From Moorena sp. SIO3I8 (lineage in GTDB: Bacteria > Cyanobacteriota > Cyanobacteriia > Cyanobacteriales > Coleofasciculaceae): a stretch of 43,162 bases of DNA. This document shows, piece after piece, positions 7,037-41,781 of the stretch (position 1 is the stretch's first letter; each line of letters starts with the position of its first letter). The stretch is taken from assembly GCF_010692325.1 (NCBI RefSeq), contig NZ_JAAHHW010000050.1, positions 1-43,162 of the forward strand. The letters run 5' to 3'. Under the pieces are notes generated by a model. That model had not been told where the DNA came from and searched no databases. It saw only the letters and a program-made list of their open reading frames with translations. The translations under genes and the position numbers were made by a program.

Positions 7037-7302
7037 GCTTCAACTGGCTAACCTTCAACTGGCTAACCTTCAACTGGCTAACCTTCAACTGGCTAACCTT
7101 CAACTGGCTAACCTTCAACTGGCTAACCTTCAACTGGCTAACCTTCAACTGGCTAACCTTCAACTGGCTAACCTTCAACTGGCCAACCTTCAACTGGCCA
7201 ACCTTCAACTGGCTAACCTTCAACTGGCCAACCTTCAACTTGCTAACCTTCAACTTGCTAACCTTCAACTTGCTAACCTTCAACTTGCTAACCTTCAACT
7301 TG
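7037..7302. repeat. 15-bp tandem repeat, about 18 copies
   Basis: Units of aaccttcaactggct, with ggcca and tgcta variants towards the cobA side, run head to tail without spacers. A 7-bp palindrome (CTTGGCC/GGCCAAG) precedes them at about 7019-7036. Because 15 is a multiple of three the minus strand stays open as KVSQL-type pentapeptides; this is read as a by-product of the period. The cobA stop codon lies inside the first unit. Confidence 0.92.
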
Positions 7303-12754: not shown

Positions 12755-13279
12755 TTAAAAATTAGGTATTTGCCAAAACTGTCCTGAATAATTACCACAA
12801 TTAGCCATAATCGGTTTATTGTCTTGGGAATCATTAATGATATCTAAACATTTATCACTGCCCGTAAACATGGTTTTGAGGCGATAATATCCAGACTTGT
12901 TTGTTGCTTCTATTTTCCAAAATTGTCCTGAATAATTACCACAGTTAGCCATAATCGGTTTATTGTCGTTAGAATCATTAATGATATCTAAACATTTATC
13001 ACTGCCCGTAAATAGGGTTTTGAGGCGATAATATCCAGACTTGTTTGTTGCTACTATTTGCCAATATTGTCCTGAATAATTACCACAGTCAGCCATAATC
13101 GGTTTATTGTCGTTAGCATCATTAATGATATCTAAACATTTATCACTGCCCGTAAACATGGTTTTGAGGCGATAATTTGTTTGTCCTTGGGCAACGTTAG
13201 TAGTACTGGCAAAAGCAAGCACAGAAGACGCAACAGCTATACCAAAAGTGAAAATTATCTTTATATTTTTGTTAGACAT
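12755..13279 (-). CDS. Secreted ricin-B-like beta-trefoil protein with three near-identical repeats
   Basis: The protein is 174 aa from ATG 13279 (an alternative in-frame ATG at 13294 adds five residues; neither has a clear Shine-Dalgarno). Residues 1-33 form a Sec signal peptide: MSNKNIK, a hydrophobic run, then AFASTTNVAQGQ. The mature part is three 48-residue repeats of RLKTMFTGSDKCLDIIND, DNKPIMANCGNYSGQFW type. Each repeat carries the Q-x-W motif of ricin-type lectins (GQYWQI, GQFWKI, GQFWQI) and two cysteines. The DNA repeats have an exact 144-nt period, implying recent amplification or gene conversion. Sugar binding is expected from the fold; the ligand is unknown and no catalytic domain is attached. 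Confidence 0.8.
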   Translation of the reverse strand: MSNKNIKIIFTFGIAVASSVLAFASTTNVAQGQTNYRLKTMFTGSDKCLDIINDANDNKPIMADCGNYSGQYWQIVATNKSGYYRLKTLFTGSDKCLDIINDSNDNKPIMANCGNYSGQFWKIEATNKSGYYRLKTMFTGSDKCLDIINDSQDNKPIMANCGNYSGQFWQIPNF

Positions 13280-13623
13280 GGTGGTATGAGACATTTTTTT
13301 AGTTTTAGAGAAAAATTGATCAATAATTGTGCCACAAACTCAACTTACCTGAGTTCGATATACCTAGGATCCACACTTACAGGTATGGGTTCTAGTTGAT
13401 AGAGACTTTTTAACGACCTTGAACTCTAAGATAATCATCAGTTTCGATCTGAACTCTCCTATACCTTTTACTACAACGCCATTAGTAAGATTCCCGATTC
13501 TCTAGAAATATTTTTATCACAGCGGGTCAAGCCGCTATGAGTCTTGATCCCCGGTTTTAAAAGACGGGGCTTTAGACTTACAGGTTCCCTCGTAAATCGG
13601 CTCTTAACTACTTTCCTTGAGCA

Positions 13624-16590: not shown

Positions 16591-17085
16591 CTAGCATCCT
16601 GGCAAATCAGTAATTTTAATGAAAAGCCATAACTGATCGTGGAAAAATTTATCAAAAGTCCCAACCGTACCATCACCCTGCCCAAATAAGTTTCTACCAT
16701 TATTACCGTTCTTGATTTTATAATAATCCTGGTTATTTACATCATGTTTTATCAACTTCCATAACTGATCGTGGAAAAATTTATCAAAAGTCCCAACCGT
16801 ACCATCACCCTGCCCAAATAAGTTTCTACCATTATTAGCGTTCTTGATTTCATAATAATTCTGGTTGTTTACATCATGTTTTATCAACTTCCATATCTGA
16901 TCAAAGAAAAATTTATCAAAAGTCCCGACCGTACCATCACCCCGTCCAAATAAGTACCGACCATTATTAGCATTCTGGATCCGAAAACATCTCCCATAAG
17001 CAGGGACATTTACCATTGCTAACAGACCCGAGCAAGCAATCAGGACTGCTATAGTACGGACAAAAATCTTTGTTGGTTTTCTCAT
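16591..17085 (-). CDS. Second secreted beta-trefoil protein with three 44-residue repeats
   Basis: A 164-aa protein. Residues 1-31 (MRKPTKIFVRTIAVLIACSG, LLAMVNVPAYG) form a Sec signal peptide. It continues as three repeats of the form YEIKNANNGRNLFGQGDGTV, GTFDKFFHDQLWKLIKHDV. Each ends in Q-x-W (DQIW, DQLW, DQLW), the ricin-type beta-trefoil signature. The repeats are not alignable by eye with the 12755-13279 protein, so this is a different subfamily with the same design. The DNA period is an exact 132 nt. No catalytic domain; probable extracellular or periplasmic carbohydrate binding. Monocistronic, with a perfect palindrome about 87 bp upstream of the start. Confidence 0.78.
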   Translation of the reverse strand: MRKPTKIFVRTIAVLIACSGLLAMVNVPAYGRCFRIQNANNGRYLFGRGDGTVGTFDKFFFDQIWKLIKHDVNNQNYYEIKNANNGRNLFGQGDGTVGTFDKFFHDQLWKLIKHDVNNQDYYKIKNGNNGRNLFGQGDGTVGTFDKFFHDQLWLFIKITDLPGC

Positions 17086-21496: not shown

Positions 21497-24400
21497 CTAT
21501 CCCTCAATAATATCTGTAAGCAAAAGATTCAAGTTTTCCACCGTTAACAGAGGCAAGTTAGGATTCTCCGTACTACTCACATTTTCTGGGTTGGAAAAGA
21601 GACTAAAACTAAACAGATATCGTCCCCTGGTTTGATTGGGGTTTTTCTGAGTCTGCCAATTGTCAATTTCCCGGACAATATTTGTTCGCAGTTGTTGAGT
21701 CACTGCTAACATATCGGTGGAATCCCCAGACTTTTGAACCGTAAATCGAGGAGTTAGTAGAACAGGTAAGGAAGCTAACAGTTCCTCATCATTAGTGTTG
21801 CTAGCTAAAGCAAAGGCATACTGACAGCTAATCCGAATATCATAAGGACGGTTAATGATAGCTGGGAGCAAGACTTTGAATAACTCTTCGAGATGCTGTG
21901 TCAAGGTTTTACTTCTGGTATTGCCCAGGTCGGCAATATCCCAACGCTTATCATTAACAATTAGAGGAGTAATCCGATTCTTAAACCTTACTTCAGGAGT
22001 CTGGAAGATGAAAGCAGCATTAGTTTCCCTGCCATCAATCAAATTTTTATTGCGGGCGAGACGGATAGCACCCCAGGCATTTTGATAGTCCAACACATCC
22101 AAATTAGTCACAGTCACCTTACGATCCGGTAATGCCGACTCCCCAAAGGTTTCTACCCCAGTTGCATCAAGCAATTTGGTGAAATCATACTCAATTGTCG
22201 TATAAGGTACTGTGGGGGAGTTAGTGGTTACATCGTTTTGCCTGGTCTCATTTAACTCATACCCTGGTAACTCAATGTCTAAGACTTGTTGATCAGCAAC
22301 GGGAAGATTGTTAGTGGGAGTGATGATAACCGTTTTGGTTTCTTGGTCAGCGGATAGGTTTTCATCAATATTGTAGTGAACTGTCTGGCGAGATGCCTGT
22401 GCGATCGCAATCGGTTGCCAAATTTGCCATGACCTAGCCACGTCTTCTGCTAGAGTCGCAAAGGCACTGAGGGCAGAGGTAACCGTAGTCTGGTTGTCAT
22501 CGGTTAACCCTGTTTCCAAAGCTTTGAGATCACTGGCTAGGGTTGGATATAGATTGTTAAACCGCACCAGGGTATCTAACAGTGGATCAATAGTATTAGT
22601 CGTATCAATAATTGTGCCAACACCCACTGGGTCCGCAATCTCTGCATTAACTGCATTACTCAGGACAATAGTAAAGGTTTCATTATTTTCAACAACATCA
22701 TCGCTCTTGACTTCCACCTGAATTTCTTTGCTGGTTTCACCTGGATCAAATTGTAGAGTTCCTTGAGTTGCCGTGTAATCTTCTGGTGCTTTCGCAGTGA
22801 CATCCTGGGTTTGATAATTAACAGTAACAGTCTTTTCAGAGGGAGGAGATAAGGTAACAGTGAAAACTGCAAATGTTTCGTCTTGATTTTCTTCGGGTTC
22901 CTTCAAAGAGACATCATTAATCGTTAATTTAGAGGAACCATTGTATTCAATCCGGCATTCAATGGTATCTTGAGCCACATCGGGATGTTCATAGAGGAAA
23001 ACATAATTCCAGTCTCGAATATCCTCAGCACTGAGAATATCACCAGCAAAACTGTCGGGGTCAGGAATTGCTGTATGGGAAATCAGAGAAGGAGGAAGGG
23101 GAAAATCTCGCAAAGGAATCGGAATTTGAACATCTCCAATTTGATTAGGCTCATCGTTGAGAGGTTGAATAAAATTGAGCCAAGAGGAGGTGGAATTGGT
23201 AGTATTAATATTATATTCCAACTCATTAACCTGATAGTTCAGATTAACCGCAATATCTTCGTAACGCTGAGGCGTTTGGGTATTGAAGAAAAAGGTCAGC
23301 GTAGACTTACCATTGTTGGCATCGCTCAGGGAAATTTTAGCTGGAGATAAGGTGAAATCTATCGATTGAAGCAGAGCTTGCTTTTCTGCGTCAGAACTAG
23401 TGGAGTTGGGTGTACTTTCAAGATTGGTGTAATAAGCCCCGCTCATGACTGGTTGCCCAGATAAACGAGGAATATCTTGACCAGACCATTGATAGCCATC
23501 AGCGATCGCTACATCCACGTTATATTGAACAATGGTTTCAATGTCGTAAGCATCTGCTAAATTTGTCAGCAATTCCTTTTGGAGTGCTGCCACTGCTAAG
23601 GTTTGGCGAGTAGTATACTCTGAGGAATTTGTATCCACAGAAGTATCCAATACATGGGTCACATTGTTACTAATCGAATCTGCCAAACTTGCTTTGACAT
23701 CTAAAATCCGCCCAAGCTCACCCTTTAAGGTGGTATCATTCACTGCAGGAATAGCTGTTTCCGGTTTCAGGATATCTTCAATAGCACGTAAATACTTACG
23801 GGCTAAACCATTCAGGTCTACCGCATCCACTCGCACGGTTTCTGTTGAGGTTTGGTCAAGTCCACCATCTTGGGTGTAGCTGTAAAGGCTTACTTCCCCT
23901 GACATTAAGGTATTGCTCAAAGGCGCAGCAGAAAAGAAGTAGGGGAAATCCTCTTTGATATCGTAACTAATCCCCGTATCCCCCAGATGAACTGCCCACA
24001 GGGTATCGCTGTTTTGAGGATTAGCATTATCAATATTCCCAGCATTCCGCCCCACTGCTAGCTTTAAGTTAGGTAGTGCTTGCTCAAAAGCCTTGGCAAA
24101 GGGGTCAAGGGAGGCCAGGCGTTGGCTAAACTCAGCATTTTCATCATCTGAGGAGCTGGTCAGCACAACGGTTTTGGGGGCAAAATAGGCTGATACTACC
24201 TCAGCTTCAGGCACATAGCCTGGATGCATCAAATCCTTGTTGCGTCGCATTTCCAGCTGTACGGTGACCGAGAATAGTAAATCCGTTGGATACAGAAGAC
24301 TATTATTGTTATCTCGGATGGTGATATCAACCGTTGTGCTAGCTACTGCTGGGGGAACAATCCAATTCTGTAAGGGCTCAATTAGACCCGATTCATTTTG

Positions 24401-27400
24401 GAGCGCCTCTGCTACTTCTGCTACAGTCAGGGGGCGTTGCGAACGCTTTTCTAAGAGATCCACCGCTGTTTTCAGACAACTGAGGTCATACATCCGATGA
24501 ATAATGTCCAATGATGTCTGTAAGGTGTCGATCAATACCTGATCATCGGGTTGACCATGGGCAGTTTCGATATTAGCGATCGCGTAGCGTGACCTTTGGT
24601 CAATCGCATCCGGGACATCCAAGGTTTCAGGTTGAGTATGAACCGTTGATGGCTCGAATTGGGGTTTAAGGTTACCTTGAGCATCCAGCAGTGTTGCTTT
24701 CAAGATACTCAAGGAAGATTCACTATCACTGGGATCAAGTAAGGCCCGTAACGCAATGCGATTTGCCCCTGCTAAGTTGTCCAGTTGCTCATAAATAGCA
24801 TTCACCGCCCCAATGCTTTGCTGGGCTTGACTGGCTTCGGCATCAATAGTATTTTTGAAATTAACCAGGGTTAGCGCCCATCGAGAGGTGAGGGTGTAGA
24901 AGGTTTCATCGGTTCCGGTCTGGATAGTTTGACTATCGATGAAAGCCGCTAACCGTTCTAAGTCGCTATTTACCGTATCGTCACTGTTGTAACTAATCTT
25001 AGTCAGGGATGCCAAAACCGGACGGACATCGATAGCAGTATTGCCACTCAACAGTCCTGCCAGGGTTTGGTTAGCGATCGCTACTGCTGCTGCAGTAATT
25101 TCCGTTCCCATGGTACTGGTTAACGTACTCAGGGATGTTGTTTGAGCTGTGGATTGTACCACTGCTAGAGAGTCAGCGTTCTGTGCAGAAGAGGTATCCA
25201 GGGTAAAGCGATCCGGAATGTAGAGGGTTGCCCCGGACTGTAACGCTAAAGTGGGATTTTGAAGGGCAATATCCCCTGCTGTGGTTTGATCGGTAATAAT
25301 TTGACTATCATGGGCAGCAGCAATAGCAATCATTTGGTCAAAGCTATCCCCACTGGTGACAGTGTAGTTAAACAGCACGTCAGCCAGGATTACATCCTCC
25401 GTACCAAATAACCCAGTCATATCGCTGACAGCACCAGCAACCACAGCTAATTGACTAGCGATCGCAGACTCAGTCAGAATATCACTGATATTGCCCACCG
25501 CTTGTACCGTTTCCAACACCGTGCGATGAAGGTTGGTTTGTAGATGAAGCTGCTGAGTTAGGTAAGCAAGGGTGTTCCGTTCGGGCAGAATTGCCTCAGC
25601 AATGGTATACTCCAGGGCACCCACTTCAGCAACAATGCCCGATTTCAGCACATCGATAGCGCGAGCATCAGTAGTGGCGACAAACTGGTTAAGGGCAATG
25701 TGATATAGACTATCCTGATCCTGGATGGTGTAATCAAGGCTAATCTCGGGGATTGTTATTGTGGAACCTGCCACCAGTAAATCCTGGCGTTGGGCATTGG
25801 CAGTAATGACCGTTTCAGTAGTTTCTATCCTAGACGTATTGGGGAATGCCGTAGCGATCGCACTCCAGGTCTTGTCAGTGATCACCTTGATGTCTACATT
25901 AAACGGAGTTGGTGAAGCTTCATCTTTCTTGGTCACCGTGACCGTTAATGTTGTGTCCGTGGGGAAAATTTCCAGATTACGAATGGCCTCAACCACATCC
26001 TGGGATTCTGCTAACAGACGGTCTCGAAGAGTGCCCAAAGTTTCGCCATCCTGGGTTGTGCTATCCAAGGCTGAAACCGTAACCCCTGCCAGCAATACCG
26101 TCGATTCATTCTCTGCAATAATCTCATTGATCCGGTCGGTCAGGATCTGGTCAAACTCCCGATCCAGGTCAGCATTTTCCAGCTGCAATACCCCATAGGC
26201 AATTTCTTCTAGGGTGGCATTTAGGGTAACGTAATTGTTGACGTGGGGTGCTTCTAGACCGTTGATCAGGACACCATTGGTTAAAGTTTCGGTCGTATCT
26301 AACCCTTGAGCAATGGTTTGTAGCAGGATTTCGATCAGGTGGTCTTCCTCTAGGGCGAGTTGTGCGATCGCAATTGACTCGAAGGTATCCCCATCTTGAA
26401 CGGTATAGCTTACGAAATGATTAGCGGTATCAGTGTAAGAAATAATCCCACCGACCGCTAATAAATCCGCCGTTTTTGCATATTTAGTGACAATTTCCTC
26501 AACTTTGGCACTTTGAGTGCCGTAATCTTTGTTGAGCTTAGTTGCGATCGCATTTAAGCTGTTGGTTGGCTCAACCCGAATACCTACAGGAACAGGAATC
26601 TGAATACTTTGATCACTGCTGAAAATACCACTAACTGCACTATTACTATCTCCTAAATCTCCAATATCACACCCATACTGATTAGCAACTGATTCCAGGT
26701 CTTCACTGTTACCAGCCACTGTATAGGCAAATTCCTGGAGATATTCCAAAGTGACCAAATACTTATAGACATTATCCACAAAGTCCGTGAAGGCGGCACG
26801 CTGGGAATCAGTCAACTCCTGGTCACTGCTGGGAATCACCGATGTACTCACCGTAAAGGTTAAGTTTGAGTCATGAACCTGATAGTAAATTTGTTGATAA
26901 GTAGCGCGGTCAGTTTTAATCTTATCCAGTGCCTCAGTGAAAAGATTCCCAGGAGTGGGAATATATTTAGATTGGTCTAACACCAACTCCAGAATCAAAT
27001 TAGCAGTCTTATCATCCTTGCTGGTAATCCTATAGCTTTCACCCACCGAGGGCCATTGATTGATTCCCAAAATCTGGTCGAAATAACCTAATTTTTGGCT
27101 AATACCTTCTGCAAAGTCCCCATCACTTCCCAAACGATTCCCATAGATATCTTGCCAGCGAAAATCCAACTTAAAGGTATCTCCAATACCGTAATAGGGA
27201 TTGAGGGTATCCTTGAGAATTTCCGGTAATGCTTGGGATTCTGTGTGGGCGGCGGTAGTTAAAGCATAAACCGGCAAGACTTTTTCATAGACCCATGTTT
27301 TATGTTTTTTATTATCCTCATCTTCTTCAATCGGTCCGATCGGTAGACGGTCTTGCCCGGTTTTAAAGTCAGCTTCAATTGTACTGGGCAGCTGATAACT

Positions 27401-30400
27401 TAAAAGCTGATAGAGGTTTTGAATCTCATCGGTAGCAGTATTATTGTCTACAGGTTCAATGGAGTCACGGGTCAGTCTAAAACCAAGATTTCCCGCCGGA
27501 ATCCTTAACACATCAATGGTTTCACTACTGGTGGCAAAAATTTCGCTGACACCATTGAGTGTACTACTCTGGGAATGATCAGACGGAATATTAAGGCAGT
27601 TGTGATAGCTAGCGGCAGTACTGCTAAAGGTCATTAACAGAGTTACCTGAGCCGTGTCCCCATCAGCAAACAGAGAATCTGGTAAGCCCTTTTGCTCATC
27701 GTTTTCTGTATAGCTATAGTTGAGGTAATAGCCTTCACTATTTACAACAGTGCTTTCCTGTACCAGTCTTAGGAATGGTAGGAAGGTCGTAGACACGTCT
27801 AGTGTCACCGTACGGTTATCCCCAGAATCTAGGGATAAATTCGTCTTCAGCATCAAGACTTCAGCACTGCCATTACGGGTCAGAACTTTCGAGCCACCAC
27901 TGTCATCACTGTCATCCAAATACAACAAGGTCAAGGTTGTAGGAGTTACGTTTGCGGTCAGAATATCTTGCAGCAATTGCCGACTAGCCGTTTCAATCCG
28001 TTCAATAGCGTATACCGTGGCCAAAAATCCGCTCCCATCTGAGGTCGAGACTTGGCGGATTTCCAATGTTAATTTAGTTGCCCAAGTATATCCTGCTTCA
28101 ATCTCCGCAGTATCTAAAGTTTCCCCATCTTGAACTGGCTGCTGATTGTAGAAAAGGGTTAAGCTTGTCTGATCAGACTTAGACTTGAGATAATCACATA
28201 ACCCGGAAGGAAGTTCCCACAGCAGATTATTGCTAGTTGCATTAATAGATTCATTCCAGTCAGTTTTGGCGCGAATAGTGTATTGCTGCTTAGTGGGATT
28301 GTAAAACTCCAGCAGTGTTGGAGGAGTTGTGGGCAAAATTCCACTGGTTTCTGCCTCATCAAGCTGCTTAATAAGCGTAATGGTGTTGTAGGGAGGATCA
28401 CTATCCGGGAAAGGGTAATTGAGTTCACAGGTTAACGTTTCACTATCACTGGTCTGACTAGTTTGACTGTCACTGGTCTGACTAGTTTCACTATCACTGG
28501 TCTGACTAGTTTGACTGTCACTGGTCTGACTAGTTTCACTATCACTGGTCTGACTTTGATAATCAATTAGTCGAATCCAAGTCAAGGTATCTAGTTTAAA
28601 TAACCGGATTTCATTGGGGCTAATCGTTACCGTCTCACTATCCCCGTCTGTTGCGGGAGGGGTGCGCGTGACTGTGACAGTAAATTGTTGTCCTGTAGCA
28701 AGATAAGCAGCTTGTTGTTGTCCATTAATGGTTGTAGTGCTACCTGTAAGGATGGGTAATCGCAATCCATGCAACAAGAATCGTGAGGTCATTCCCGCTA
28801 AGGATTGGAACGACTCACCACCATTGAAATGATTGAGTAAGTCAATCAGAGTAATCGTACCATTGGCATCAACCCCATCTTTTTTATCCCTAACATGATC
28901 GATGCCAAGCTGCACGACAGAACGAATAATTAAGGTGAAGTAGTCAATAAATAAAAGTTCAGCGATCGCTAAACTTCCAGATGCATCGTTGGTCGGTATT
29001 TGTCCCAGGACTTCTTCTGTGCTCTGGTTATGGTTATAGTTGGAGGATTGAAAATAATTTTGAATCGCCTTGATTTGAGCGGGAGAATATTTCGTACTAT
29101 CAAAATCAATGATATTGGGCTGCTTATTGGGATCATTCTCATCAGCACCATCCTTGAGTTCCATCTGAAGTTGAGGAAACATCGGGAAAATGGTACCACT
29201 AATTTCCGTATCCGCACTAATGGGGCGGTCGGTGATATCAAATATAAAATTCCTAGACAAGAATCGAATTAGCGGTTCCCAAAACTCATCCGCAGGTTCT
29301 TCCTCTAAGTAGTTAACGAATAGGGTATAAACATCTTCTAACAATTCCAAAGTTAAGACTTGAGCATCAACATTAACAGCACTTGTGTCGATATTTAAAG
29401 CATTACGCTCACTATCTGATAAATAGGCATAAATCACCCATTTAAATAGGGCTTTAACTAACTCATCAAAGTCCGTATCATTATCATTGGTAGAGTTATC
29501 ATCTAGAGGAATCGAGTTTTCCATAAACAATAACCCGATACCACTTACCCCTGTTTCGGTCTTAGTATCTGTTTCGGTCTTAGTATCTGTTTCGGTCTTG
29601 GTAAAGGACGGTTGAAAATAAATATCGAGGCGAAGCTTCCCGTCTTTTACAGTTTCCGTGCGCACGTCTCCGGGGAGTGCTAGCTGAATTCCCGTTGTGC
29701 CATCATCCCATCGCAATGACCGTCCACCAGATGTTTGGGTAGTGCCATTTGTCGTAGTAGTATTTGTAGTAGTTACATTTGTAACTGTTCTTGTGCTACT
29801 AATGGTCTGGGCTTTAGCAAAACCAAAGCGATTAGCCCTACCATTTTTTTTGATTCGATAGGGACGCACGGTTTGAGCACGGGCAGTAAATACCGGCACA
29901 GTTGCTGCCATGGCTCCCCCAGAACCAGCAGCGAGTTGCCAGGGTGGTGTGCTATCTGAACCGAGGACAAATTGCTCCCGCACGGTCAAGTTAAACTTAA
30001 ATCTGATCCGGACAAAGGCAATCTTGATTGATGCTCTGACAGAAACCGTAGCCACCAGAGCCACCTGAATGGCTTTGTATACCTCCACCACAAACAGCAC
30101 CGCAACTTTAACCAGGACTTCTACATCAACCTGAATCACTTTAAAGTCCACGACACCATAGATCCGACCAACAATGGCTACACCACCCTGAATCCGGTAA
30201 TAGGTGGCCTTTTTCTCATTAGTATCGGTGGGATTATAGGTAGCAAACACCCCTTGCAAAAGGCCATGGATGGTAATGCTGAATTCCGCGCGCAGAGGAC
30301 CTTTCTTGATAATTTTCCCCAACCCGACCTGTAAGCCAATGCCAAATTCCAATACCGGGTCAAAGGTGCCACTAACAATGTCGGGAACACTGGTGGCTGT

Positions 30401-32533: not shown

Positions 32534-32766
32534 GGCTCGATTCAGAAATATTACTAGGCAAAAATGGAATTATCGGAAATCAGCGCTCAGCGGTCAGCAT
32601 TCAGCCGTCAGCCATCAGGGAGCATTTTTTATTCAAAAGCACCTCAAGTAGCGTGGCACAGGCTTCTAGCCTGTGACCTAACCTATAAGCTGATAGCTGA
32701 TAGCTGATAGCTGATAGCTGATAGCTGATAACTGATAGCTGATAGCTGATAGCTGATTACTGATTG
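32534..32766. repeat. Spacer repeat cassette, copy 1, with (gctgata)n
   Basis: Order: tcagc heptamers, tttattcaaaagc, the palindrome CACAGGCT-tct-AGCCTGTG (about 32656-32674), acctaacctataa, then about eleven gctgata heptamers. The same cassette fills the gap at 34155-34293. No independent promoter was recognised. Confidence 0.88.
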
Positions 32767-33273
32767 CTATTCTTCATTACTGATTTTGAAATAGACCCCC
32801 CTTAATTTAAGGTCTAATCCATCTATTAATTGACCTGAATTCTCTTGCCATTCTGCTGATAGTCCAACAGTATAAGCTGTCTTCGTTTTATCAACGACTT
32901 TCTTTCCATCAGCATTTGTCGTTGAAGCACTAGAACCTGGAATTCTGACATGAAATTCATCCACATATAAACCAGCTTCAACCAGCACACTTGCCGCATC
33001 CTGTAAGACGGTAATATCTGGTAATTCGTCGGACTTGAGAGTGCCATCCTCATTCAGAAAGGAAGCCGTTGTGCCTGACTCAACTGCTCCTAGGGTTTGT
33101 AAAATACTGTTAAGAGAGGTACCTACTGTCCCTAAATAGACTCTCTCCCCTGCCGGAAGTTCAACTTCAATTCCCTTTTCTTTAATTTCATTAATAGCAT
33201 TTTTAGGTTCTAAGGAAATTGTCTTTCCAGCCAGTTCTAGAGAAACACCAAAAAATACTTTAGTATCTGACAT
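32767..33273 (-). CDS. Small protein of the giant operon (168 aa), unknown
   Basis: The sequence starts SDTKVFFGVSLELAGKTISL and ends GLDLKLRGVYFKISNEE; no signal peptide or cysteine-rich motif. The predicted pattern is beta-strands at both ends around a helical middle (LPDITVLQDAASVLVEAGLY). The alternating VFFGVSLEL, AYTVGLSAEW and LDLKLRGVYFKIS strands resemble the strand style of the first 500 residues of the giant protein, so a shared fold or assembly partner is possible. AAGGAG lies 6-7 nt before the ATG. Gene order and strand place it in the operon, between the 180-residue and 3678-residue proteins. I do not recognise the family. Confidence 0.85.
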   Translation of the reverse strand: MSDTKVFFGVSLELAGKTISLEPKNAINEIKEKGIEVELPAGERVYLGTVGTSLNSILQTLGAVESGTTASFLNEDGTLKSDELPDITVLQDAASVLVEAGLYVDEFHVRIPGSSASTTNADGKKVVDKTKTAYTVGLSAEWQENSGQLIDGLDLKLRGVYFKISNEE

Positions 33274-33558
33274 GTTTTTGCTCCTTATTCAAAAATATTT
33301 AGTTTCAACAACTATCAATTTACAACAATTATAAATTAGACATTTACCATTGAATTATATATCATATATAAATGATATGTAAACCTAAGAGGTATTTTTT
33401 TTATTGGGCAATAAAACTCCGGATATCTTTCCCATCTTGCCTCTTGCTTCTTGCCTCTTGCCTCTTGCCTCTTGCCTCTTGCCTCTTGCCTCTTGCCTCT
33501 TGCCTCTTGCCTCTTGCCTTTTTAAGCAATTCGTGTGTTTACAACCGAGATACAAAGG
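33274..33558. repeat. Spacer with (cttgcct)n heptamers
   Basis: About twelve cttgcct units at 33436-33520, preceded by an AT-rich stretch and the phrase gggcaataaaactccggat, which also occurs near 8293. No gene is supported. Confidence 0.88.
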
Positions 33559-34101
33559 CTATAGTTGATCGAGCTTAACGTCAGCTTCCGGTGGCACCAC
33601 TGATTCTTCTGGAATCTTTGTTGTTGAAAGATTATCATCAGCCACAGGATTTCCATTTGCGTCCACAAAGGTTAAGCCTTTTTTAACAATGACACCATTG
33701 GGATAATCATCAGATTGGGGTACCGAAAATACGGTTACTTTAATCCCCCTCCTATCTTCAGGTTCCGGGATAGGTTGGAAGACATCAATCTTCAACTTCA
33801 TTGCCAGTTCAGGAGCAACATCTTGGTTGGTTAGAAAACTGAAATCTTTAATATCAAAGGGAAAATCCTTGGCAAAATTGAAGGGAAACTCATCATTAAT
33901 TGATCCAGTAGCCGTATAACAAGGATCTGGTGATGTACCTTCCGTAACAGTAATTGGTTTTGCCCACATATCAGATAATGGATGATTGTCAGATAAGGTG
34001 ATGGGCAATTCTTCAGTAATGCTATAGGTAGTCTGTACTTCCTCCATAAACGTTGGGATATCGTTAATATCTTGATAATTAGGGATTTTCTGCTCTGCCA
34101 T
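33559..34101 (-). CDS. Small acidic protein of the giant operon (180 aa), unknown
   Basis: The protein is rich in Asp, Glu and Pro. It starts AEQKIPNYQDINDIPTFMEE, has an aromatic stretch NDEFPFNFAKDFPFDIKDFS in the middle and IKVTVFSVPQSDDYPNGVIV later, and ends PPEADVKLDQL. No signal peptide or membrane segment. AGGAGA precedes the ATG by 5 nt, a strong ribosome site. Third gene in transcription order; it may be an accessory or linker subunit, but that is only position-based inference. No family recognised. Confidence 0.85.
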   Translation of the reverse strand: MAEQKIPNYQDINDIPTFMEEVQTTYSITEELPITLSDNHPLSDMWAKPITVTEGTSPDPCYTATGSINDEFPFNFAKDFPFDIKDFSFLTNQDVAPELAMKLKIDVFQPIPEPEDRRGIKVTVFSVPQSDDYPNGVIVKKGLTFVDANGNPVADDNLSTTKIPEESVVPPEADVKLDQL

Positions 34102-34354
34102 CGTATCTCCTGTTTATCTAAATTAAATTCAACCTATTGGTTAGTGGCTTTGTAAGCCGTCAGCCGTCAGCCGTCAGCCGTCAGCTTATTTTATTCAAAA
34201 GCCAACTAGCGTGGCACAGGCTTCTAGCCTGTGACCTAACCTATAAGCTGATAGCTGATAGCTGATAGCTGATAGCTGATAGCTGATAGCTGACGTTGCT
34301 TTTAATAGTTGGACATTAACCTTTGGTGGGGGACGCACCACCAGATAGCTGTAG
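34102..34354. repeat. Spacer repeat cassette, copy 2, with (gccgtca)n and (gctgata)n
   Basis: gccgtca heptamers (34157-34185), ttattcaaaagcc, palindrome CACAGGCT-tct-AGCCTGTG, acctaacctataa and gctgata heptamers (34247-34293), in the same order as 32580-32766. A GGTGG/CCACC hairpin near 34324-34341 is close to the stop of the 1279-residue gene. Confidence 0.88.
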
Positions 34355-37300
34355 TTATTTAGCATAAGCAGCATACCAACCAACGGCATCATTACTATCC
34401 GTGGCATCAGGATTGCCAAAGATAACAATTTCGGTTTGTCCATTGGGGGGAAATGAGAGGACAAAAAACTTAAGAGCAACCTTCTTGATTTTTAACAAGT
34501 AAGCTGTACCAGAAGCGCTAGTCGAATCAACCAGTAATTCCACCGTCTTGAAGGACAGCTTCAGTACACTCTGGAGAGGAAAACCGAGCACATCCCCACC
34601 AATTCCCGGTAGCCTCAATCCCACAAAGGTTGTTGCTTTTTCCTGGGAACCATCCTGATTCGGTTCCCAGATAATCAACAGATTAACCACAAACTGAGCT
34701 GAACCCGACAATGCCCCCAAACTGCCCAAATTAAACTCGAAGTTAAAACCAAAGCCACTGTCGGGCATAGAACCACTGCCCAAGGGAGTTTTAACCGTAA
34801 GATACCCTTTAGGCTTGTTATCGGGTTGAGCAGGGTCGAGATAGACGAAGTTAGTCAGCTTAAGGGGAAATTTGCTGTAGAGACTATGGGGGCGGGCTTT
34901 ACTGCGAGCGAAATCAAAGGCAATTTGGCTGGGCTCCACACTAAAGGTGATATCCTGGGTACCATTGGTATGCTTGCAGTTCATCACAATACTCAGCTTT
35001 GAAAACTGGAGGAATTGTTCGTTATTAGCTAGCTCATCCAGTTTTTGCTGCAACTCCGCTGATGCTTGATTGAGAGTATCAATCCCTACCTGATAATCGT
35101 CTTCCAGGGCACGGGCACTGCGGTTGACCAGGTTGCTGGCAGTTAACACTTCATCGGACAGGGAAGTATCTGACCCAAAGGATAATCCATCAAAGGCCTC
35201 TAGGTCACGGAAATTGAGACGGCCCCAGAGGGTAAATCGTCCAATGGTGAGTGTAGTATCATTGCCTGGGGGATCTGTGGAAAAAGTGGCCTTAACGATG
35301 TCAACATTATTGAGAATATGACTATCGGGTAGGGCAAAATAGTTCTCGCCGCTAAAGCTAAAGCCATAGGTAATCACCCCATTGTGTTCTTCCGTAAAGC
35401 CCTGGAGAATGACGATATTCCGTCCTGAGCGGCTATTGAGTAATTGGGTGGCTTCGTCAAAGAGTTTATCTAGGGTAAGATTGACTTCACTGGAAAATGC
35501 GGTAATTTGAGAATTTTGGAACTGCACCCGTAAGTTGGCCACCTGGAAGGCATAGCCCAAGGGACCCGTTTCTGGCACGGAGTTGTCTTCATAGTCCAGC
35601 AATCCAAACAAAGAAGACTGTTCCGCTACCAATTGCCCATTTTGGGGCAAAATGGGGGTGCCATTACTTCCAACATACTGAGCGTAGAAATTATCCCGGT
35701 CTTGTATGCCACATTCTAGGGCTTTCAAGTCTGGAGGCATTCCTGTCCCGACCGGGAGCTTAACATTTAACGCGATCATCCCTGACCAAAAGGTGCTGCT
35801 GCCAACCCGGGCTAGAGGGGCAGCATTATCCCGGTCTTTTTCAGCAGCATTGGGGTCGTTGGCGGTTGCGATCGCATTTTCAAAGAATGCCACTAAGCGA
35901 TCGCGCACTGCTTTAATCTCTTTGACCCGTTCATCAGCATCCGTTGCCGTCCCGACAAATACCTCCGGTTGTTCCCACAGGGCGGTATCCTTGAGAATAT
36001 CAATCAGGGGCTTATCTAGGAATTTAAACAGTAAGACCGTATCCGTATCCCCTGTGCCCTGTCGCCAATTGTCTGGATTGAGATCAAAGGTCCACCCTTG
36101 AATAGTCAGTTGATTATTCTGAAAATGCTCTTTGATAACTTGAGGAGGTTCATTGGTATCAAAGGTTTTGAGGGAACTCGGGTCAGTTATCACCAGGAAC
36201 ATCTGACTGGACTGGAAAGCTGAACGGAGGGATGAACCCCGTTCTAAGTCCTGCAAGCTTACATCATCATTGTCGGTATCCTTCGCCAGTAATAGACTAT
36301 TGAGGGTTTGATAATCAGAGGAATAGGTTGCCAACAATCCCAGGGAAGTTGTACCAGTAATGGTTTCCGTTGTTGAGCTAGCAGCAGCCATGGCCTGAGC
36401 TTCAGGGGTAGCTGATCTACTCAAGGCACTGAATGCTTGCGGACTAGATGTCCCTATGCCTATGCCCTGTATTTCCTGAGCTTCACCGCTAAGTTGAGTG
36501 GTGTCTGTTTCAGCAACAATTCTAATTTTTTGGCGGCGCTGGGGATTGAGGATTTGTTCCTCCATTTGCTGATAGTGAGCCAGGGTTCCACTTACTCCAC
36601 CATAGGGAAACAAGGGTAAATACTCTCCCCTTGGCAGTCCTGTAAAGGGAACCTCCAAAAACCTGAGGGGATCATCAGTTGGGTCTTGGTTTCCATCCTG
36701 AAACGTTGATGCTCGATACAGCAAGGACTGCTTGGGTTGGGAAAAATAGACCGGTAAATTCGTTACTTGGTCATATTCAATATATCCCCAAGCTGTGGTT
36801 GTTCCCGATTCTAGACGCTGCCCAGCTTCATTGGTATCTACAATTTGCTCAGGAACGAAATCCGGCGCAAAGGTCGGTTTTCCAGCTTCCAGATGCAGAA
36901 TATTAACCTGTTGACTCGACAGTTGAATGTATTCAATCCCCGCTAATCCACACAAGAAGTTATCTTCATCTCGTATCGAAAAGTCCTTTCCACTGGGGAT
37001 AGGGGTACTCTCGTAATTGGGAACCGAGAGAGTATATTTCCCTTGGGGGACTAGATACAAGGGTGAACCAAAGATGCTAGAATTCTGCCCTGGACGCTCT
37101 GCAAAGATTAGCCGACTGTCCCCATGACCATGGGGAGTGACATGGATGGAATATCCCAAATTGGTGCGATAACAAGAAGGCAAGGATAAATCCGAAATAG
37201 TAGAGTTTCCTGGCTCTACAAAGGCAAAGTAAGTGCGATCGCCATTCAATGGTTGGAGGGGATCTAGGGCGCTATATAAGGTCAGATTTTGGCTACCATC

Positions 37301-38194
37301 CCCCTGCTTAGAATAATGGGAAGCAGCATCCCTATCTTCCCCCAGAAAAGGATATCGATGGCTAGAAATCAGGAATTCCTGGTCGCTATTCAATCCTGCA
37401 AAACCAGACAAGGGGTCACTCGGGTCTAGTAAGGAGTTTGCGGATTTGAAAAACATCCGCAACGTCACATCCAGATAAACTAGTTCCTCAAAGGAGGCTG
37501 TGCCAGGAGATTGGTTTTGCAAGGTCAGGGCAAAGGTCAGGCAACCGGCCAACTCTCCACTAAAGGGTAATGCCATAGCTTCCCCTGCTTCATTGACCTC
37601 AATGCCTTTGAGCTGATGAGCACCATAACCTGTGGACAAATAAAAGGGGTCAGTTTTCGGTAATTCAGTTTCCGGTGATTCAGTCCCGGTGTTAGGGAGG
37701 TTGTGTACAGACGGATCCAGAGCAAACACAAACCCGTCTTTAGTTCCATTCAACTGACAAATTACGCCACTAGCGATCGCTAATTCATAGTTGCGGAAAT
37801 TAAAAAAGGTCAGTCGCTCTACGGTATCTGTTGGAGACAGGGTCAGGGCATGAAATCGCCAGCGAGAGACTAACTCCTCTGGGTTATCAATCCACAAAAA
37901 CCGAGTATTGCGTACCGAAGGTGTAATCAGAAATTCACGAATGCGATCGCATAGCGTCGGCAAAGCCGAATCGCTCAACACCGAAGGGTCTATAGCATCA
38001 TTCCCCTCTAGAGCAGCTTTGAGAAATAGATATACTCCCGTCTTTATTGTCCAAGTTTCTTCCAGGGAAAGGGTTTGAGAACCTTCTATCGATCCTTCAT
38101 TCACCCAAAAACCAATGCTATAGGGCACGGTAGGGTTAACGGATTCAGGTAAAAAGTAGAGCGCCTGTGCTGTTGATTGGGTAAAGGTAGTCAT
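34355..38194 (-). CDS. Large protein of the giant operon (1279 aa), unknown
   Basis: Second gene in transcription order. Its ATG is 11 nt after the preceding stop, with GGGGGTGAG overlapping that gene's end, so the two are translationally coupled. No signal peptide: MTTFTQSTAQALYFLPESVN. The N-terminal 500 residues are beta-rich with FLWIDNPEELVSRWRFHALT and YSIHVTPHGHGDSRLIFAER. Residues about 600-640 are Ser/Thr/Ala-rich linker (SRSATPEAQAMAAASSTTET). About 720-1000 has WTFDLNPDNWRQGTGDTDTV and ALWEQPEVFVGTATDADE. The C-terminal 250 residues are long amphipathic strands (FNFEFNLGSLGALSGSAQFV) ending DAVGWYAAYAK. I know no named domain for it. The intact frame over 3.8 kb supports function. 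Confidence 0.9.
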   Translation of the reverse strand: MTTFTQSTAQALYFLPESVNPTVPYSIGFWVNEGSIEGSQTLSLEETWTIKTGVYLFLKAALEGNDAIDPSVLSDSALPTLCDRIREFLITPSVRNTRFLWIDNPEELVSRWRFHALTLSPTDTVERLTFFNFRNYELAIASGVICQLNGTKDGFVFALDPSVHNLPNTGTESPETELPKTDPFYLSTGYGAHQLKGIEVNEAGEAMALPFSGELAGCLTFALTLQNQSPGTASFEELVYLDVTLRMFFKSANSLLDPSDPLSGFAGLNSDQEFLISSHRYPFLGEDRDAASHYSKQGDGSQNLTLYSALDPLQPLNGDRTYFAFVEPGNSTISDLSLPSCYRTNLGYSIHVTPHGHGDSRLIFAERPGQNSSIFGSPLYLVPQGKYTLSVPNYESTPIPSGKDFSIRDEDNFLCGLAGIEYIQLSSQQVNILHLEAGKPTFAPDFVPEQIVDTNEAGQRLESGTTTAWGYIEYDQVTNLPVYFSQPKQSLLYRASTFQDGNQDPTDDPLRFLEVPFTGLPRGEYLPLFPYGGVSGTLAHYQQMEEQILNPQRRQKIRIVAETDTTQLSGEAQEIQGIGIGTSSPQAFSALSRSATPEAQAMAAASSTTETITGTTSLGLLATYSSDYQTLNSLLLAKDTDNDDVSLQDLERGSSLRSAFQSSQMFLVITDPSSLKTFDTNEPPQVIKEHFQNNQLTIQGWTFDLNPDNWRQGTGDTDTVLLFKFLDKPLIDILKDTALWEQPEVFVGTATDADERVKEIKAVRDRLVAFFENAIATANDPNAAEKDRDNAAPLARVGSSTFWSGMIALNVKLPVGTGMPPDLKALECGIQDRDNFYAQYVGSNGTPILPQNGQLVAEQSSLFGLLDYEDNSVPETGPLGYAFQVANLRVQFQNSQITAFSSEVNLTLDKLFDEATQLLNSRSGRNIVILQGFTEEHNGVITYGFSFSGENYFALPDSHILNNVDIVKATFSTDPPGNDTTLTIGRFTLWGRLNFRDLEAFDGLSFGSDTSLSDEVLTASNLVNRSARALEDDYQVGIDTLNQASAELQQKLDELANNEQFLQFSKLSIVMNCKHTNGTQDITFSVEPSQIAFDFARSKARPHSLYSKFPLKLTNFVYLDPAQPDNKPKGYLTVKTPLGSGSMPDSGFGFNFEFNLGSLGALSGSAQFVVNLLIIWEPNQDGSQEKATTFVGLRLPGIGGDVLGFPLQSVLKLSFKTVELLVDSTSASGTAYLLKIKKVALKFFVLSFPPNGQTEIVIFGNPDATDSNDAVGWYAAYAK

Positions 38195-38205
38195 CTGCTC
38201 ACCCC

Positions 38206-41200
38206 CTACAGGACAATGCGATCGCCTTTGACCAGAGGCAAATCAAGCACTGGACTATCTACGTCCAGGTAGATAAAGCGATAGCTAGGTTCGTTAGACA
38301 CCCCTTCGTGTAAAAGGCGACTCAACCTCGGTTTTCCGGTAGAGTTCAGTAGGGATTCTCCCAGGGATACTGAAGGAATACTGACACGTTGCTCCATCAG
38401 TTGTCGTAAAGTCGTTCCCACCGGAACAAATACCGGTTGTTCCTGTAGCACCACCGTAATTTCTGGAATCACTGTTGCCCGTCCTCGGAAATAAAAGCTG
38501 GCAACGTTTGTCTTTTTATCCAGGTCTGTTACTGTTGCGGCTCCCATAATGGTTGCAGCTTGTCCGGGATCGAGGGAACCTGCAGAGGGAGCTGCCAAAC
38601 TAGGATAAACTAGCCGCAAGTAGGGTTTTTGATAGCCAACTTTAAAGGTATCCAGACTACTCCCAGCCCCTACCGTAGCAATATCTGTGGTGACATAGGG
38701 CTGAATTTGGGACAAAAACCCATCAAAGTTGATCATTAGGTTAGTGCCATCCCGATAACTGTTGAGGCTATAGTAGGACGTGCCACTGCCCACAAACCCT
38801 GAATTAGCCGTAGATTGGGCTGGATGAACGAATTGATAGTTTTGGTAATCGACCCGTAACCGCATTCCAGCTTGCAAATCCACTGAGCCATTAACAGTAT
38901 CCAAGCCGTAGTAGTAGTAGAGAATTTCCTCAACCAACAACGGCATCCGTTCAGCAATGCGGGTTTTGACAAGGGTGAGGGTACCAGGAATCAGATTACT
39001 GTTGGTATCTAGTTGAGTAATAAAGTTGTCGTAATCGGTCTTAAGTTGATCTAGCCAATTGTCACTGCTTTCCGGAGGAGTTATGGTCACGGTGCAGCTT
39101 TGATCAGCATTTTCTGTAAGGGTAAAGATGCCTGCGGTGCTGGAAATGTTATTGGAATCCGCAGCAGTGTTGAATAACTTGGGCAATGTTGTGGTTTGGG
39201 TGATGGCAGCAGAGTCGTTGGGTTTGCCCAAATAAATAACAGGTTTTTGCTCCACCACCGTAAAGTAGTAGTCCGCTTGATGGCGAAACTGTTGTGCAAA
39301 GATCACATCTACTTGGGAGTTTAACCGTTCCAAAATCGCTTCCAGGATGTGATTGGGAGTCAGCGGTGGGCGAACTAGGGTAAACTCCGGCACTGTAAAG
39401 GTGTTTACCGTCCCTGCTTGATCTGTCCAATCAAAGGTTCCAGAGACTTTGGCCAAAAAGCCTAACTCAGTCAGTTCCAGGATTACAGTGGCGTTCATCA
39501 CGGAAGCGATCGCTACCTGGTCGATAATCTTGTGGGAGGTACCGGGTTCAAAGATTGGACCCAAGGTAACTTCAAACGGTAGACTCAAATTCCTTTGCCC
39601 TTCCAGGACAAACTGCTCATTGCGCCACCAGCCATGAAGTACAAGGTTTTCTCCCAACCAATTGCCCTTGAGAACGACTTTCCCATCTTCAATCCCGAGG
39701 GGGTCAAATTGACTCCGTTGTTGATTGTGACGAGCAAAGAGTAGCTTGAAATCTACCGTCCAATCAAATGGGCGATAATCCCTTAATTGGGGGAGTACTA
39801 GTTCAGACACAGAGGTGATGGAAGACATCTGCCAGATCTCCCCGGTGGTATCTGATTTCAGGAATAGACACAACCCCTCTAGGGTATTAATTTGTCCTAA
39901 TCCGATTTGAAGGTCGAATTCCGGTGAATTGAGGGCAAGTTTACCCGGCGCATCCGCTTGAACTGCCGTAAAGGGAATTGACGTTTTCCATAACGTGCTA
40001 TCCACTTGTCCCCACTTAAAGTACCAGGTTGGGGAGGTTCCAGGTTCTGATTGCCATTCCAGGGCAATCTTGGTGAAGTCAAACTCAGGGGTAACTTCCC
40101 GGATTTCAGAGGTGTCAACCTTAAGATTGAGCTTAGACTCTGAATAATGCTCTACATCCGGCATACCCTCCAAAGTCAGTTGAGCAGTTAGGGGTTGGTT
40201 CAAAGGAGTGGGCATATTAGTCAGCGTCAGGTTGCCCAAAATTTCAATAGTGGGGTAGTAGCGCTGGTAAATCGCCTCTGGTGTCAGGGCGGAGTCATAA
40301 ATTGCCACCTCGTAGAGTTCCCCTTCCCAAGGGAAATCTTGATTCCTTCGGGAGTTGCCCCTGCGATCGAGAAATAAAACGTCATTTGCTAAAGCTAACT
40401 TAACAGCAGGGTCATTTGTCCAAAGATTAAGCTCCTGATCATCCCGATCTTTCCAAGGAGAATCCTCCTCATCATCCCGATTTTTCCAACGATTACCCCT
40501 CTGATTCCTATTTTTCGCACGATTACTCTGCTGATTCTTATTTCTCCAAAAATGACGCTCCTGATTATCGCTATTAATCCATTTTGAATTGTCTAGCTTG
40601 CCATTGAGATACAACTTGGCATTATCACTCTCATCCCCGAAGTTATTCTGTGAGAAGGTATAGACAACATAGGTTAGCTCGGTTGTTACTGTGTCGGGAC
40701 TTGTCGTCAGGATTTGCCAATATCGGTTTCTATCATTAGTGTTGGTGCGCAATAGCACACTATACTCGTCGTGATGGTACCAATCCCCCGACCACCGATT
40801 TCCATAACCCTCTAGCCATTCTGAATCCCCTTGAGCGAGAGTCACATAGGGATTTTGAGGATCTTCGGATAGAGTCAGGACTATAGCTGGGTATTGTTGA
40901 CCCGTTTGGCTAGGCTTAATCCAGGTTGCAATAGTGATTTCGTTGCTCTCTTGGAATGCCTTGATCAGTTTGCTAGCAGAACTTAGGTTTGCCGCTTCTA
41001 GGGTCGCATTTTCACTCTCGATCAAGCCATCTTTAACAGCGATAGACCCTAATCCCCACTGCACTGTTTCTGGCTCCGTTTGAATCCGTAAGTCGATGGC
41101 GGGTGCATCTTCGGTATTCCTCAAGGAGCAATCATAAACCCATTCTCCCGACTTTTCTCCAAACCAGTAGAGCACCTGGGGTTGAAGAGGATTTGATCCA

Positions 41201-41781
41201 GGTTTGACCGTAAAAGTCGTCAACTCCAAATTGCCCCACGGTTGAATCGGGATTTCCTGAGGATTATTAGGATTGTAATTAAAAATTAGTTCAGAGCCAT
41301 CGCTCAACCCTGCCTCAAGGACAATATCTTGACCAGAGAAAACCGCCGTCACTGTTCCACTGACAGTGACGGTTTCGGAATTAAGTTGCTGGGTAAAACT
41401 CAGATTTAAATCTTTGAAATGAGTTGAGCCTTCCGGACTAAATCCAAAAGAATCAGTAGATTGAACTCCTAACGTAAATGAATCGCTGTCGTAGGTTAGT
41501 TCAATAGTATAAAATGCATCGAAAGGTGAGGCTGGTAATCCCGGTAAAATTAGGCTAGCTTGATAAAGGCTCTTATCAAGGGGTGCTCCAGGTTTGAGAA
41601 TTTGTGCAACTGATGATTCTGCTAAAAACTCGGAGATTGTTTGTTTGCTATAGCGTTCCTTATCGAGTCCCTCAGGGATTGTAATCCAATAGATCTGGAA
41701 ACCAGTCTGAGCATCAATCTCGTATTTAAAGTAGTACTCAGAACCTAGACTCAATAATGTTATAAATCCGTATGCGAGCAT
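38206..41781 (-). CDS. Large LamG-domain protein, first gene of the giant operon (1191 aa)
   Basis: Start ATG 41781 with AGGGAG 5 nt upstream. The N-terminus (MLAYGFITLLSLGSEYYFKY) is only weakly hydrophobic and is not a convincing signal peptide. Residues about 240-510 form a laminin-G/concanavalin-like domain: EITIATWIKPSQTGQQYPAI, LTYVVYTF, KLYLNGKLDNSKW, and the closing FPWEGELYEVAIYDSALTPE, AIYQRYY. Within it residues about 401-455 are an inserted array of five 10-11-residue repeats rich in Asn, Arg, Asp and Trp (e.g. RGNRWKNRDDEEDSPWKDRD). The remainder is beta-rich and ends SYRFIYLDVDSPVLDLPLVK GDRIVL. LamG domains bind sugars or proteins, usually outside cells; here the location is uncertain. 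Confidence 0.88.
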   Translation of the reverse strand: MLAYGFITLLSLGSEYYFKYEIDAQTGFQIYWITIPEGLDKERYSKQTISEFLAESSVAQILKPGAPLDKSLYQASLILPGLPASPFDAFYTIELTYDSDSFTLGVQSTDSFGFSPEGSTHFKDLNLSFTQQLNSETVTVSGTVTAVFSGQDIVLEAGLSDGSELIFNYNPNNPQEIPIQPWGNLELTTFTVKPGSNPLQPQVLYWFGEKSGEWVYDCSLRNTEDAPAIDLRIQTEPETVQWGLGSIAVKDGLIESENATLEAANLSSASKLIKAFQESNEITIATWIKPSQTGQQYPAIVLTLSEDPQNPYVTLAQGDSEWLEGYGNRWSGDWYHHDEYSVLLRTNTNDRNRYWQILTTSPDTVTTELTYVVYTFSQNNFGDESDNAKLYLNGKLDNSKWINSDNQERHFWRNKNQQSNRAKNRNQRGNRWKNRDDEEDSPWKDRDDQELNLWTNDPAVKLALANDVLFLDRRGNSRRNQDFPWEGELYEVAIYDSALTPEAIYQRYYPTIEILGNLTLTNMPTPLNQPLTAQLTLEGMPDVEHYSESKLNLKVDTSEIREVTPEFDFTKIALEWQSEPGTSPTWYFKWGQVDSTLWKTSIPFTAVQADAPGKLALNSPEFDLQIGLGQINTLEGLCLFLKSDTTGEIWQMSSITSVSELVLPQLRDYRPFDWTVDFKLLFARHNQQRSQFDPLGIEDGKVVLKGNWLGENLVLHGWWRNEQFVLEGQRNLSLPFEVTLGPIFEPGTSHKIIDQVAIASVMNATVILELTELGFLAKVSGTFDWTDQAGTVNTFTVPEFTLVRPPLTPNHILEAILERLNSQVDVIFAQQFRHQADYYFTVVEQKPVIYLGKPNDSAAITQTTTLPKLFNTAADSNNISSTAGIFTLTENADQSCTVTITPPESSDNWLDQLKTDYDNFITQLDTNSNLIPGTLTLVKTRIAERMPLLVEEILYYYYGLDTVNGSVDLQAGMRLRVDYQNYQFVHPAQSTANSGFVGSGTSYYSLNSYRDGTNLMINFDGFLSQIQPYVTTDIATVGAGSSLDTFKVGYQKPYLRLVYPSLAAPSAGSLDPGQAATIMGAATVTDLDKKTNVASFYFRGRATVIPEITVVLQEQPVFVPVGTTLRQLMEQRVSIPSVSLGESLLNSTGKPRLSRLLHEGVSNEPSYRFIYLDVDSPVLDLPLVKGDRIVL

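Follow-up and report, generated by a model that had tools for sequence, protein, structure and literature searches.

What holds together five head-to-tail genes for large proteins in a cyanobacterium, and what might they do? The genes belong to Moorena sp. SIO3I8 (genome 8.0 Mb, 510 contigs) and lie on the minus strand of contig NZ_JAAHHW010000050.1 (assembly GCF_010692325.1); the window is the whole stretch of this contig that was analysed, 43,162 nt. We call them P1 to P5. The original prediction, made from the letters alone, described a five-gene operon of giant proteins. We consider it very probable that the genes form a single modular unit with exchangeable cargo, because P2 and P5 stay adjacent, fusions occur within the set, and the cargo is exchanged. 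For the whole we favour, at a probability of about 0.4, a horizontally spread modular machine that would deliver a nuclease-type effector outside the cytoplasm, most likely as an antagonist.

All five open reading frames (ORFs) were confirmed as intact and head to tail, in the order P1-P2-P3-P4-P5. The parts of the locus to which we refer are the following (aa, amino acids):

38206..41781, minus strand: P1, 1191 aa, with a variable N-terminal head and a conserved C-terminal third; relatives in 25 of 44 loci entries (two records entered twice)
40567..40956, minus strand: P1 LamG/ConA-like lectin domain, residues 276-405 (Pfam PF13385, E 2.5e-8)
38209..39234, minus strand: P1 conserved C-terminal region, about residues 850-1191, from alignment occupancy
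34355..38194, minus strand: P2, 1279 aa, putative core protein without known domain; a relative in 37/37 loci of the genome scan, for which P2 was the query
35585..35608, minus strand: P2 signature FGL(L/I)DYED, with invariant F, G, L, D, Y and D columns in a 37-row alignment
33559..34101, minus strand: P3, 180 aa, cargo-slot gene of the cyanobacterial form; among the loci examined, in Moorena, Symploca, Leptolyngbya and Adonisia only
32767..33273, minus strand: P4, 168 aa, highly conserved cargo-slot gene of the cyanobacterial form, distributed as P3
21497..32533, minus strand: P5, 3678 aa, putative giant core protein, final ORF of the set
29984..30736, minus strand: most conserved block of P5, about residues 600-850 (occupancy 0.94-0.97, majority residue 0.50-0.65, 45 rows)
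26369..26407, minus strand: LysM-like stretch of P5, best piece residues 2043-2055 (Pfam LysM, E 0.0039, below cut-off)
22628..22882, minus strand: Calx-beta domain of P5, residues 3218-3302 (Pfam PF03160, E 3.5e-22)

A plasmid protein search with P2 gave seven records (Nostoc, Tistrella, Azospirillum, Embleya, Lysinibacillus, Mycetohabitans and Paenibacillus). GTDB species genomes were scanned with one P2 peptide motif, giving 37 confirmed loci among 77 pattern matches; FGL(L/I)DYED was the only scan pattern, and its conservation among the scan loci is partly a result of that selection. The 37 loci include the Nostoc and Tistrella plasmids, and with five other plasmid records and Azospirillum lipoferum make 43 named records, close relatives among them, such as three Moorena and three Chitinophaga. 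These span Cyanobacteriota, Bacteroidota, Pseudomonadota, Acidobacteriota, Actinomycetota and Bacillota, a distribution that is a lower bound because the scan used P2 and a single motif and would miss forms lacking P2. The window set thus appears to be one branch of an unnamed system found in six phyla. Searches of the open-licence literature gave, as far as titles and abstract beginnings go, no description of this set, nor do the available passages of PMC12419801.

P5 is found with P2, or fused to it, in 42 of the 43 records; the exception (L052) is on a contig that ends 31 bases past P2. Two ORFs make up P5 in Tistrella, Paenibacillus, Magnetospirillum and Acanthopleuribacter. When the plasmids were searched with the conserved block of P5 alone, the same seven records were returned together with a weak new one, Azospirillum lipoferum 4B, whose annotation lists in a row a 1083-aa hypothetical protein, an endonuclease/exonuclease/phosphatase (EEP) family protein and a 3380-aa protein. 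By hhalign the 1083-aa protein is related to P2 (100%, E 7.9e-60), which brings the plasmid records with the set to eight. In Azospirillum lipoferum 4B the set (L114:21346-24768) lies between transposases on its plasmid, near a type III-B CRISPR module. Among 18 genomes searched for P2 copies 17 have one and Chitinophaga hostae two; in Caulobacter sp. B11 (L069:1472-5121) the P2 gene is in two frames. Beyond P5 no family recurs among 18 regions (first nine ORFs listed in each), save for scattered matches between 2-4 regions. P2 and P5 together appear to be the constant core. Homologues scattered singly, which the original prediction named as evidence against it, did not turn up, P2 and P5 occurring together almost everywhere they were found. 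A viral or phage origin was considered and rejected: P2 as query found no relative in phage records, and 26 pattern matches in viral contigs yielded 0 confirmed loci.

The part that changes is what we call the cargo slot, a gene between P2 and P5 or just ahead of P2. It holds an MBL (metallo-beta-lactamase type) protein in 17 of the 43 records, an EEP protein in 10, a protein that we call type X in 3, and P3 plus P4 in 8, all of them cyanobacterial; no cargo was found in 4 (L042, L044, L075 and L079, checked with tblastn) and one (L052) is not assessable. Motifs, BLAST or public annotation define these classes (for MBL, HxxxDH and HHG motifs or a BLAST match to proteins having them), and Pfam is above cut-off in three EEP proteins only: of five scanned, L063, L072 and L074 exceed the Exo_endo_phos cut-off and L038 and L055 fall below it. 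The Nitrosospira EEP protein (L063) resembles DNase I over almost its full length (E 3.8e-7), and the cargo of some relatives is predicted, by profile and similarity, to be of the EEP/DNase I-like nuclease type. The motifs of the MBL cargo we take to be ComEC-like. One of 14 P5-family proteins scanned matches Lactamase_B (E 0.003), likely the Niastella fusion described below. In Paenibacillus (L044:14457-16381) a trypsin-like protein (Nal1_C, above cut-off) and a weakly hydrolase-like protein are encoded just ahead of P2.

Among 147 Chitinophagaceae genomes P2 occurs in 6, at seven places. MBL is present at four of these (two of which, L107 and L108, are the records L057 and L065 counted above), X at two and EEP at one. 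A P2 tree of 38 rows calls for at least 8 changes of slot content, at least 3 of them between MBL and EEP, and its clades mix phyla; the tree was made by a quick method and left out L049, L050, L069, L070 and L078, and these counts are approximate. Azospirillum B510 (L040) was labelled there as having no cargo and was later assigned to type X, and the label of L064, EEP upstream, was confirmed afterwards. The original prediction had seen no enzymes, which describes the window version but not the relatives: 27 of the 43 records have an MBL- or EEP-type protein in or beside the slot, and 3 more have type X. Its five-gene operon likewise stands as five adjacent genes, but only for the cyanobacterial form, P1, P3 and P4 being outside the universal core.

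Several lineages join these parts in one protein. Niastella P5 begins with a fused MBL protein whose start is signal-peptide-like, and in Azospirillum B510 type X is fused at the same end. Mycetohabitans has X fused to a piece matching the N-terminal part of P5 in relatives (E 8e-34 and 1e-27), the remaining P5 being a separate gene. In a Bacteroidetes genome (L075) P2 and P5 are a single ORF of 3437 aa.

Signal peptides were judged from a hydropathy scan and by visual reading rather than with a trained predictor. All nine separate Bacteroidota MBL proteins examined have signal-peptide-like N-termini (hydropathy 2.43-3.12), as by eye do the Kosakonia and Nitrosospira EEP proteins. Among the five window proteins no signal peptide is convincing, in keeping with the original prediction; the start of P1 is the highest of the five (1.92, borderline, by hydropathy only). 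Cyanobacterial P5 reaches 2.43 some 50 residues from its start, and the start of Sphingomonas L079 P5 has 2.09; we read neither as a signal peptide.

P1 belongs to the unit less strictly. In an alignment of 26 rows occupancy is 0.92-1.00 from residue 901 and 0.23-0.81 before residue 800, and the heads of 18 P1-family proteins contain fn3 in 6 and LamG in 5 (E <= 0.01). P1 itself matches LamG with 34.6 bits against a Pfam cut-off of 27.6, and P5 matches Calx-beta with 79.1 bits against a cut-off of 27, so that two of the three domain types originally named pass their cut-offs. The third, LysM, scores 17.5 bits in P5, under the cut-off of 20.9, but was detected at E <= 0.01 in 7 of the 14 P5-family proteins scanned, window P5 among them. 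Calx-beta occurs in one of the 14, window P5 itself, and the sole NCBIfam match of P5 is confined to that part. Searches of Pfam, NCBIfam and PHROGs gave nothing credible for P2, P3, P4 or the conserved part of P5, and the PDB gave no credible relative of P2, P5 or P1. Repeats within or units shared among P1-P5 were also considered and rejected: the best windowed hhalign probability was 41%, and that of P4 against P5 0.4%.

The DUF6603 label first attached to P5 has to be dropped, PF20248 giving no match to it at E <= 1; a search of its own genome with this model (E <= 10) matches contigs C112 and C12 only. These hold two other rows of giant-protein genes with true DUF6603 domains (C112:25395-26858, L082, and C12:14432-15838, L083). 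Proteins of both rows have no significant BLAST match to P1-P5, and hhalign gave no match between one of the two loci and the P5 alignment. DUF6603 is absent from the open-licence literature searched.

In Moorena and Symploca the whole row is maintained. The closest P2 relatives are from Moorena, and in 57 genomes (the window's own and relatives) P2 and the N-terminal region of P5 were found in the same 7, with P1 in 6 of these. Three congeners and Symploca keep gene order and frames; G016, of the same family, has a distant P2/P5 pair with no P1 detected. In 20 of 20 comparisons of the window genes with four relatives dN/dS is 0.100-0.400, synonymous sites being saturated in five against Symploca, and the five genes are under purifying selection. 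Because of these ratios and of the order kept in congeners and Symploca, the row is more than chance. It is rare in the phylum, with 2 of 386 evenly drawn genomes having the set (the window's own and one congener). The view of a single co-inherited unit of giant proteins without known function holds up.

Three stretches of short repeats lie between the genes:

34155..34293, no strand: heptanucleotide repeats in the P2-P3 spacer, two arrays (34155-34185 and 34246-34293)
33435..33519, no strand: heptanucleotide repeat array in the P3-P4 spacer
32688..32768, no strand: heptanucleotide repeat array in the P4-P5 spacer, its final two bases touching the end of P4

The P1-P2 gap is 11 nt, as first reported, and the other three spacers are 253, 285 and 233 nt, each with heptanucleotide repeats; spacer lengths vary between Moorena relatives, and a further such array directly follows P5 (21450-21489). 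Ribosome sites had been noted for most of the genes, and by eye Shine-Dalgarno-like sequences precede P1-P4 and none precedes P5. Promoter and terminator matches at the window locus are at chance level. Elsewhere in the window there are tandem repeats at 12767-13176 and 16627-16980, with units of 144 and 132 bases (multiples of three) inside ORFs 12755-13294 and 16591-17085, which suggests repeat proteins, and at 6611-7005 and 7038-7300 a 15-base unit is present about 17 times beside tandem repeats of 49 and 66 bases.

Upstream of the set, one family is common to five relatives. Its Rhodanobacter and Dyella members have weak Hint-type matches (Vint/PT-HINT below cut-off in Rhodanobacter, weaker Hint matches in Dyella), and Tistrella has an annotated Hint-domain gene at the same place; Pfam finds no Hint domain in the five window proteins. 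Also found repeatedly upstream are small proteins (six Bacteroidota loci, and four of the EEP clade). Regulator-like genes there form two clusters, each drawn from four loci (response-regulator-like and kinase-like, by eye). A response-regulator-like gene of about 215 aa (label by eye) is upstream of P2 in the Bacteroidota loci L057, L058, L059 and L065. At two Chitinophagaceae places (L111:3-662 and L113:3-1262) ORFs with collagen-like, GATGP-type repeats lie upstream of P2.

How might such a set work? P2 and giant P5 would form the constant core, and P5, with its LysM-like repeats, may serve as the scaffold of the complex, with the cargo held on the N-terminal side of P5. P1 would be an optional targeting subunit, its LamG or fn3 head being exchanged on a constant C-terminal part for binding. 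The slot would supply interchangeable cargo, usually of a metal-dependent phosphoesterase type (MBL or EEP), or X. We infer an extracytoplasmic modular effector complex because some cargo has signal-peptide-like starts (9 of the 30 cargo-bearing records) and the LamG/fn3 heads of P1 are exchangeable; secreted-type cargo in some lineages and domains of lectin, fn3 and LysM type likewise point to a place outside the cytoplasm. The complex would then most likely bring a nuclease-type effector onto or into other cells, which is the most economical role for it. The original prediction had noted domains of a kind that works outside the cell with no export gene, and both observations stand. It had left a choice between unusual export and an intracellular assembly; the cargo starts favour export, short of proving it. 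More tentatively still than the reading as a whole, we propose an unnamed class of extracellular effector-delivery machines, with a P2-P5 core, plug-in enzyme cargo and binding heads in at least six phyla, in which P3/P4 would be a new small cargo.

A number of results weigh against such delivery. The signal-peptide-like starts are confined to those 9 records (7 Bacteroidota, Kosakonia and Nitrosospira), the remaining cargo (proteobacterial, actinobacterial and most EEP) having no such start seen or not having been assessed. By hydropathy, P2 has no signal peptide at any locus (<= 1.75) and P5 no accepted one outside the Niastella fusion, and no secretion gene was recognised near the set, where neighbours were clustered by sequence rather than annotated; for these reasons export of the core is unexplained. 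Small genes in the slot and upstream include none recognisable as an immunity gene. Some cargo assignments are also weak: of five MBL proteins scanned by Pfam, L057, L061 and L066 are below cut-off and L039 and L076 have no match, the MBL cargo protein P0008 has no PDB match, and the Labrenzia EEP protein has only a weak sphingomyelinase match (E 0.016), which would mean lipid rather than DNA as the target. The four records in which no cargo was found are a further difficulty, as is the window branch itself, with no recognisable enzyme among its five proteins. There P3 and P4 occupy the slot, and the effector would be either of a new small type or lost; the function of the Moorena locus is accordingly the least certain of all.

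The strongest competitor, though in our view unlikely, is an extracellular or surface scaffold that displays nucleases for DNA scavenging or biofilm remodelling and is harmless to other cells. Such a scaffold needs no immunity gene, and none was identified; its LysM-like and lectin-type domains suit a surface matrix, and the cargo folds resemble nucleases of extracellular type, namely DNase I and, through motifs that we presume to be ComEC-like, MBL. ComEC is reported to have a metal-dependent nuclease activity that is important for transformation (excerpts of PMC8579336). A scavenging scaffold leaves type X, the exchangeable heads and the enzyme-free cyanobacterial form without explanation, however, and a set of this size is costly beside single secreted nucleases that do the same task.

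The window branch, with conserved P3/P4 and no enzyme, is what one would expect of a structural surface assembly (a sheath, for example, or an adhesive or gliding matrix) to which enzyme-like genes would be incidental modifiers and which would have a purely structural role in Moorena. LamG and Calx-beta are typical of adhesion proteins, and the patchy distribution agrees with this too. Against it stand the MBL- or EEP-type proteins of 27 of the 43 records and the three lineages in which cargo and P5 sequence are fused, and the set occurs in single distant genomes of unrelated phyla, unlike a house-keeping sheath; we regard this explanation as improbable. Less probable again is an intracellular conflict system, for instance anti-phage defence, with MBL, EEP or other effectors: the mobile and patchy distribution, the core and most cargo without convincing signal peptides, the recurrent regulator-like upstream genes and weak matches of the Tistrella and Embleya MBL proteins to PADLOC RTasMBL, LmuA, PDC-M48B and Avs1a (E 5.8e-8 to 0.026) would fit it, but P1-P4, the Nostoc EEP protein and the second half of Tistrella P5 have no PADLOC match at E <= 0.1, and cargo in Bacteroidota, Kosakonia and Nitrosospira starts as secreted proteins do.

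If delivery of a nuclease-type effector is the right reading, at least six bacterial phyla have in common a modular machine, so far undescribed, with the same giant core and interchangeable nuclease-type enzymes and binding heads. It would be a new delivery or antagonism system and account for very large hypothetical and LysM-labelled proteins, and the natural swaps of cargo could be used to probe the function of the core. Even with a nutritional or structural role, a conserved 20-kb set whose core has no match in the scanned families would be a gap in annotation.

Several known systems are similar in part. DUF6603 proteins are also giant and encoded beside other large proteins, but P5 has no PF20248 match. 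The MBL domain of ComEC and the DNase I/EEP nucleases share motifs with the cargo, with nearly full-length DNase I similarity for the Nitrosospira EEP protein; this likeness is confined to cargo, the core being unrelated, and the MBL proteins here stand alone or are fused to P5 and are not competence channels. Tc toxin complexes are giant multi-subunit proteins that lack signal peptides and have an exchangeable enzyme part, all of which recalls the present set; they differ in gene layout, and no significant Tc, Rhs or YD-repeat match was found in the scanned proteins (a TcaA_3rd_4th line in the scan of one relative has E 0.14, not significant). LysM occurs in some parts of extracellular contractile injection particles. 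Those systems are spread patchily among environmental microbes and have variable effectors (excerpts of PMC8213781), as here, whereas the five window proteins have no sheath, tube or baseplate match in Pfam or PHROG, and P5 is the last gene, with no common gene family after it. In polymorphic toxin systems the exchanged part is a C-terminal tip, while here it has a gene of its own or is joined to P5 on the N-terminal side; moreover, no immunity gene was recognised in the present set, and the core proteins match no family in the scanned libraries. What the present set has in common with polymorphic toxins, as described in excerpts of PMC3482391, is a constant carrier with an exchangeable effector, less certainly Hint-type domains near some relatives, and horizontal spread.

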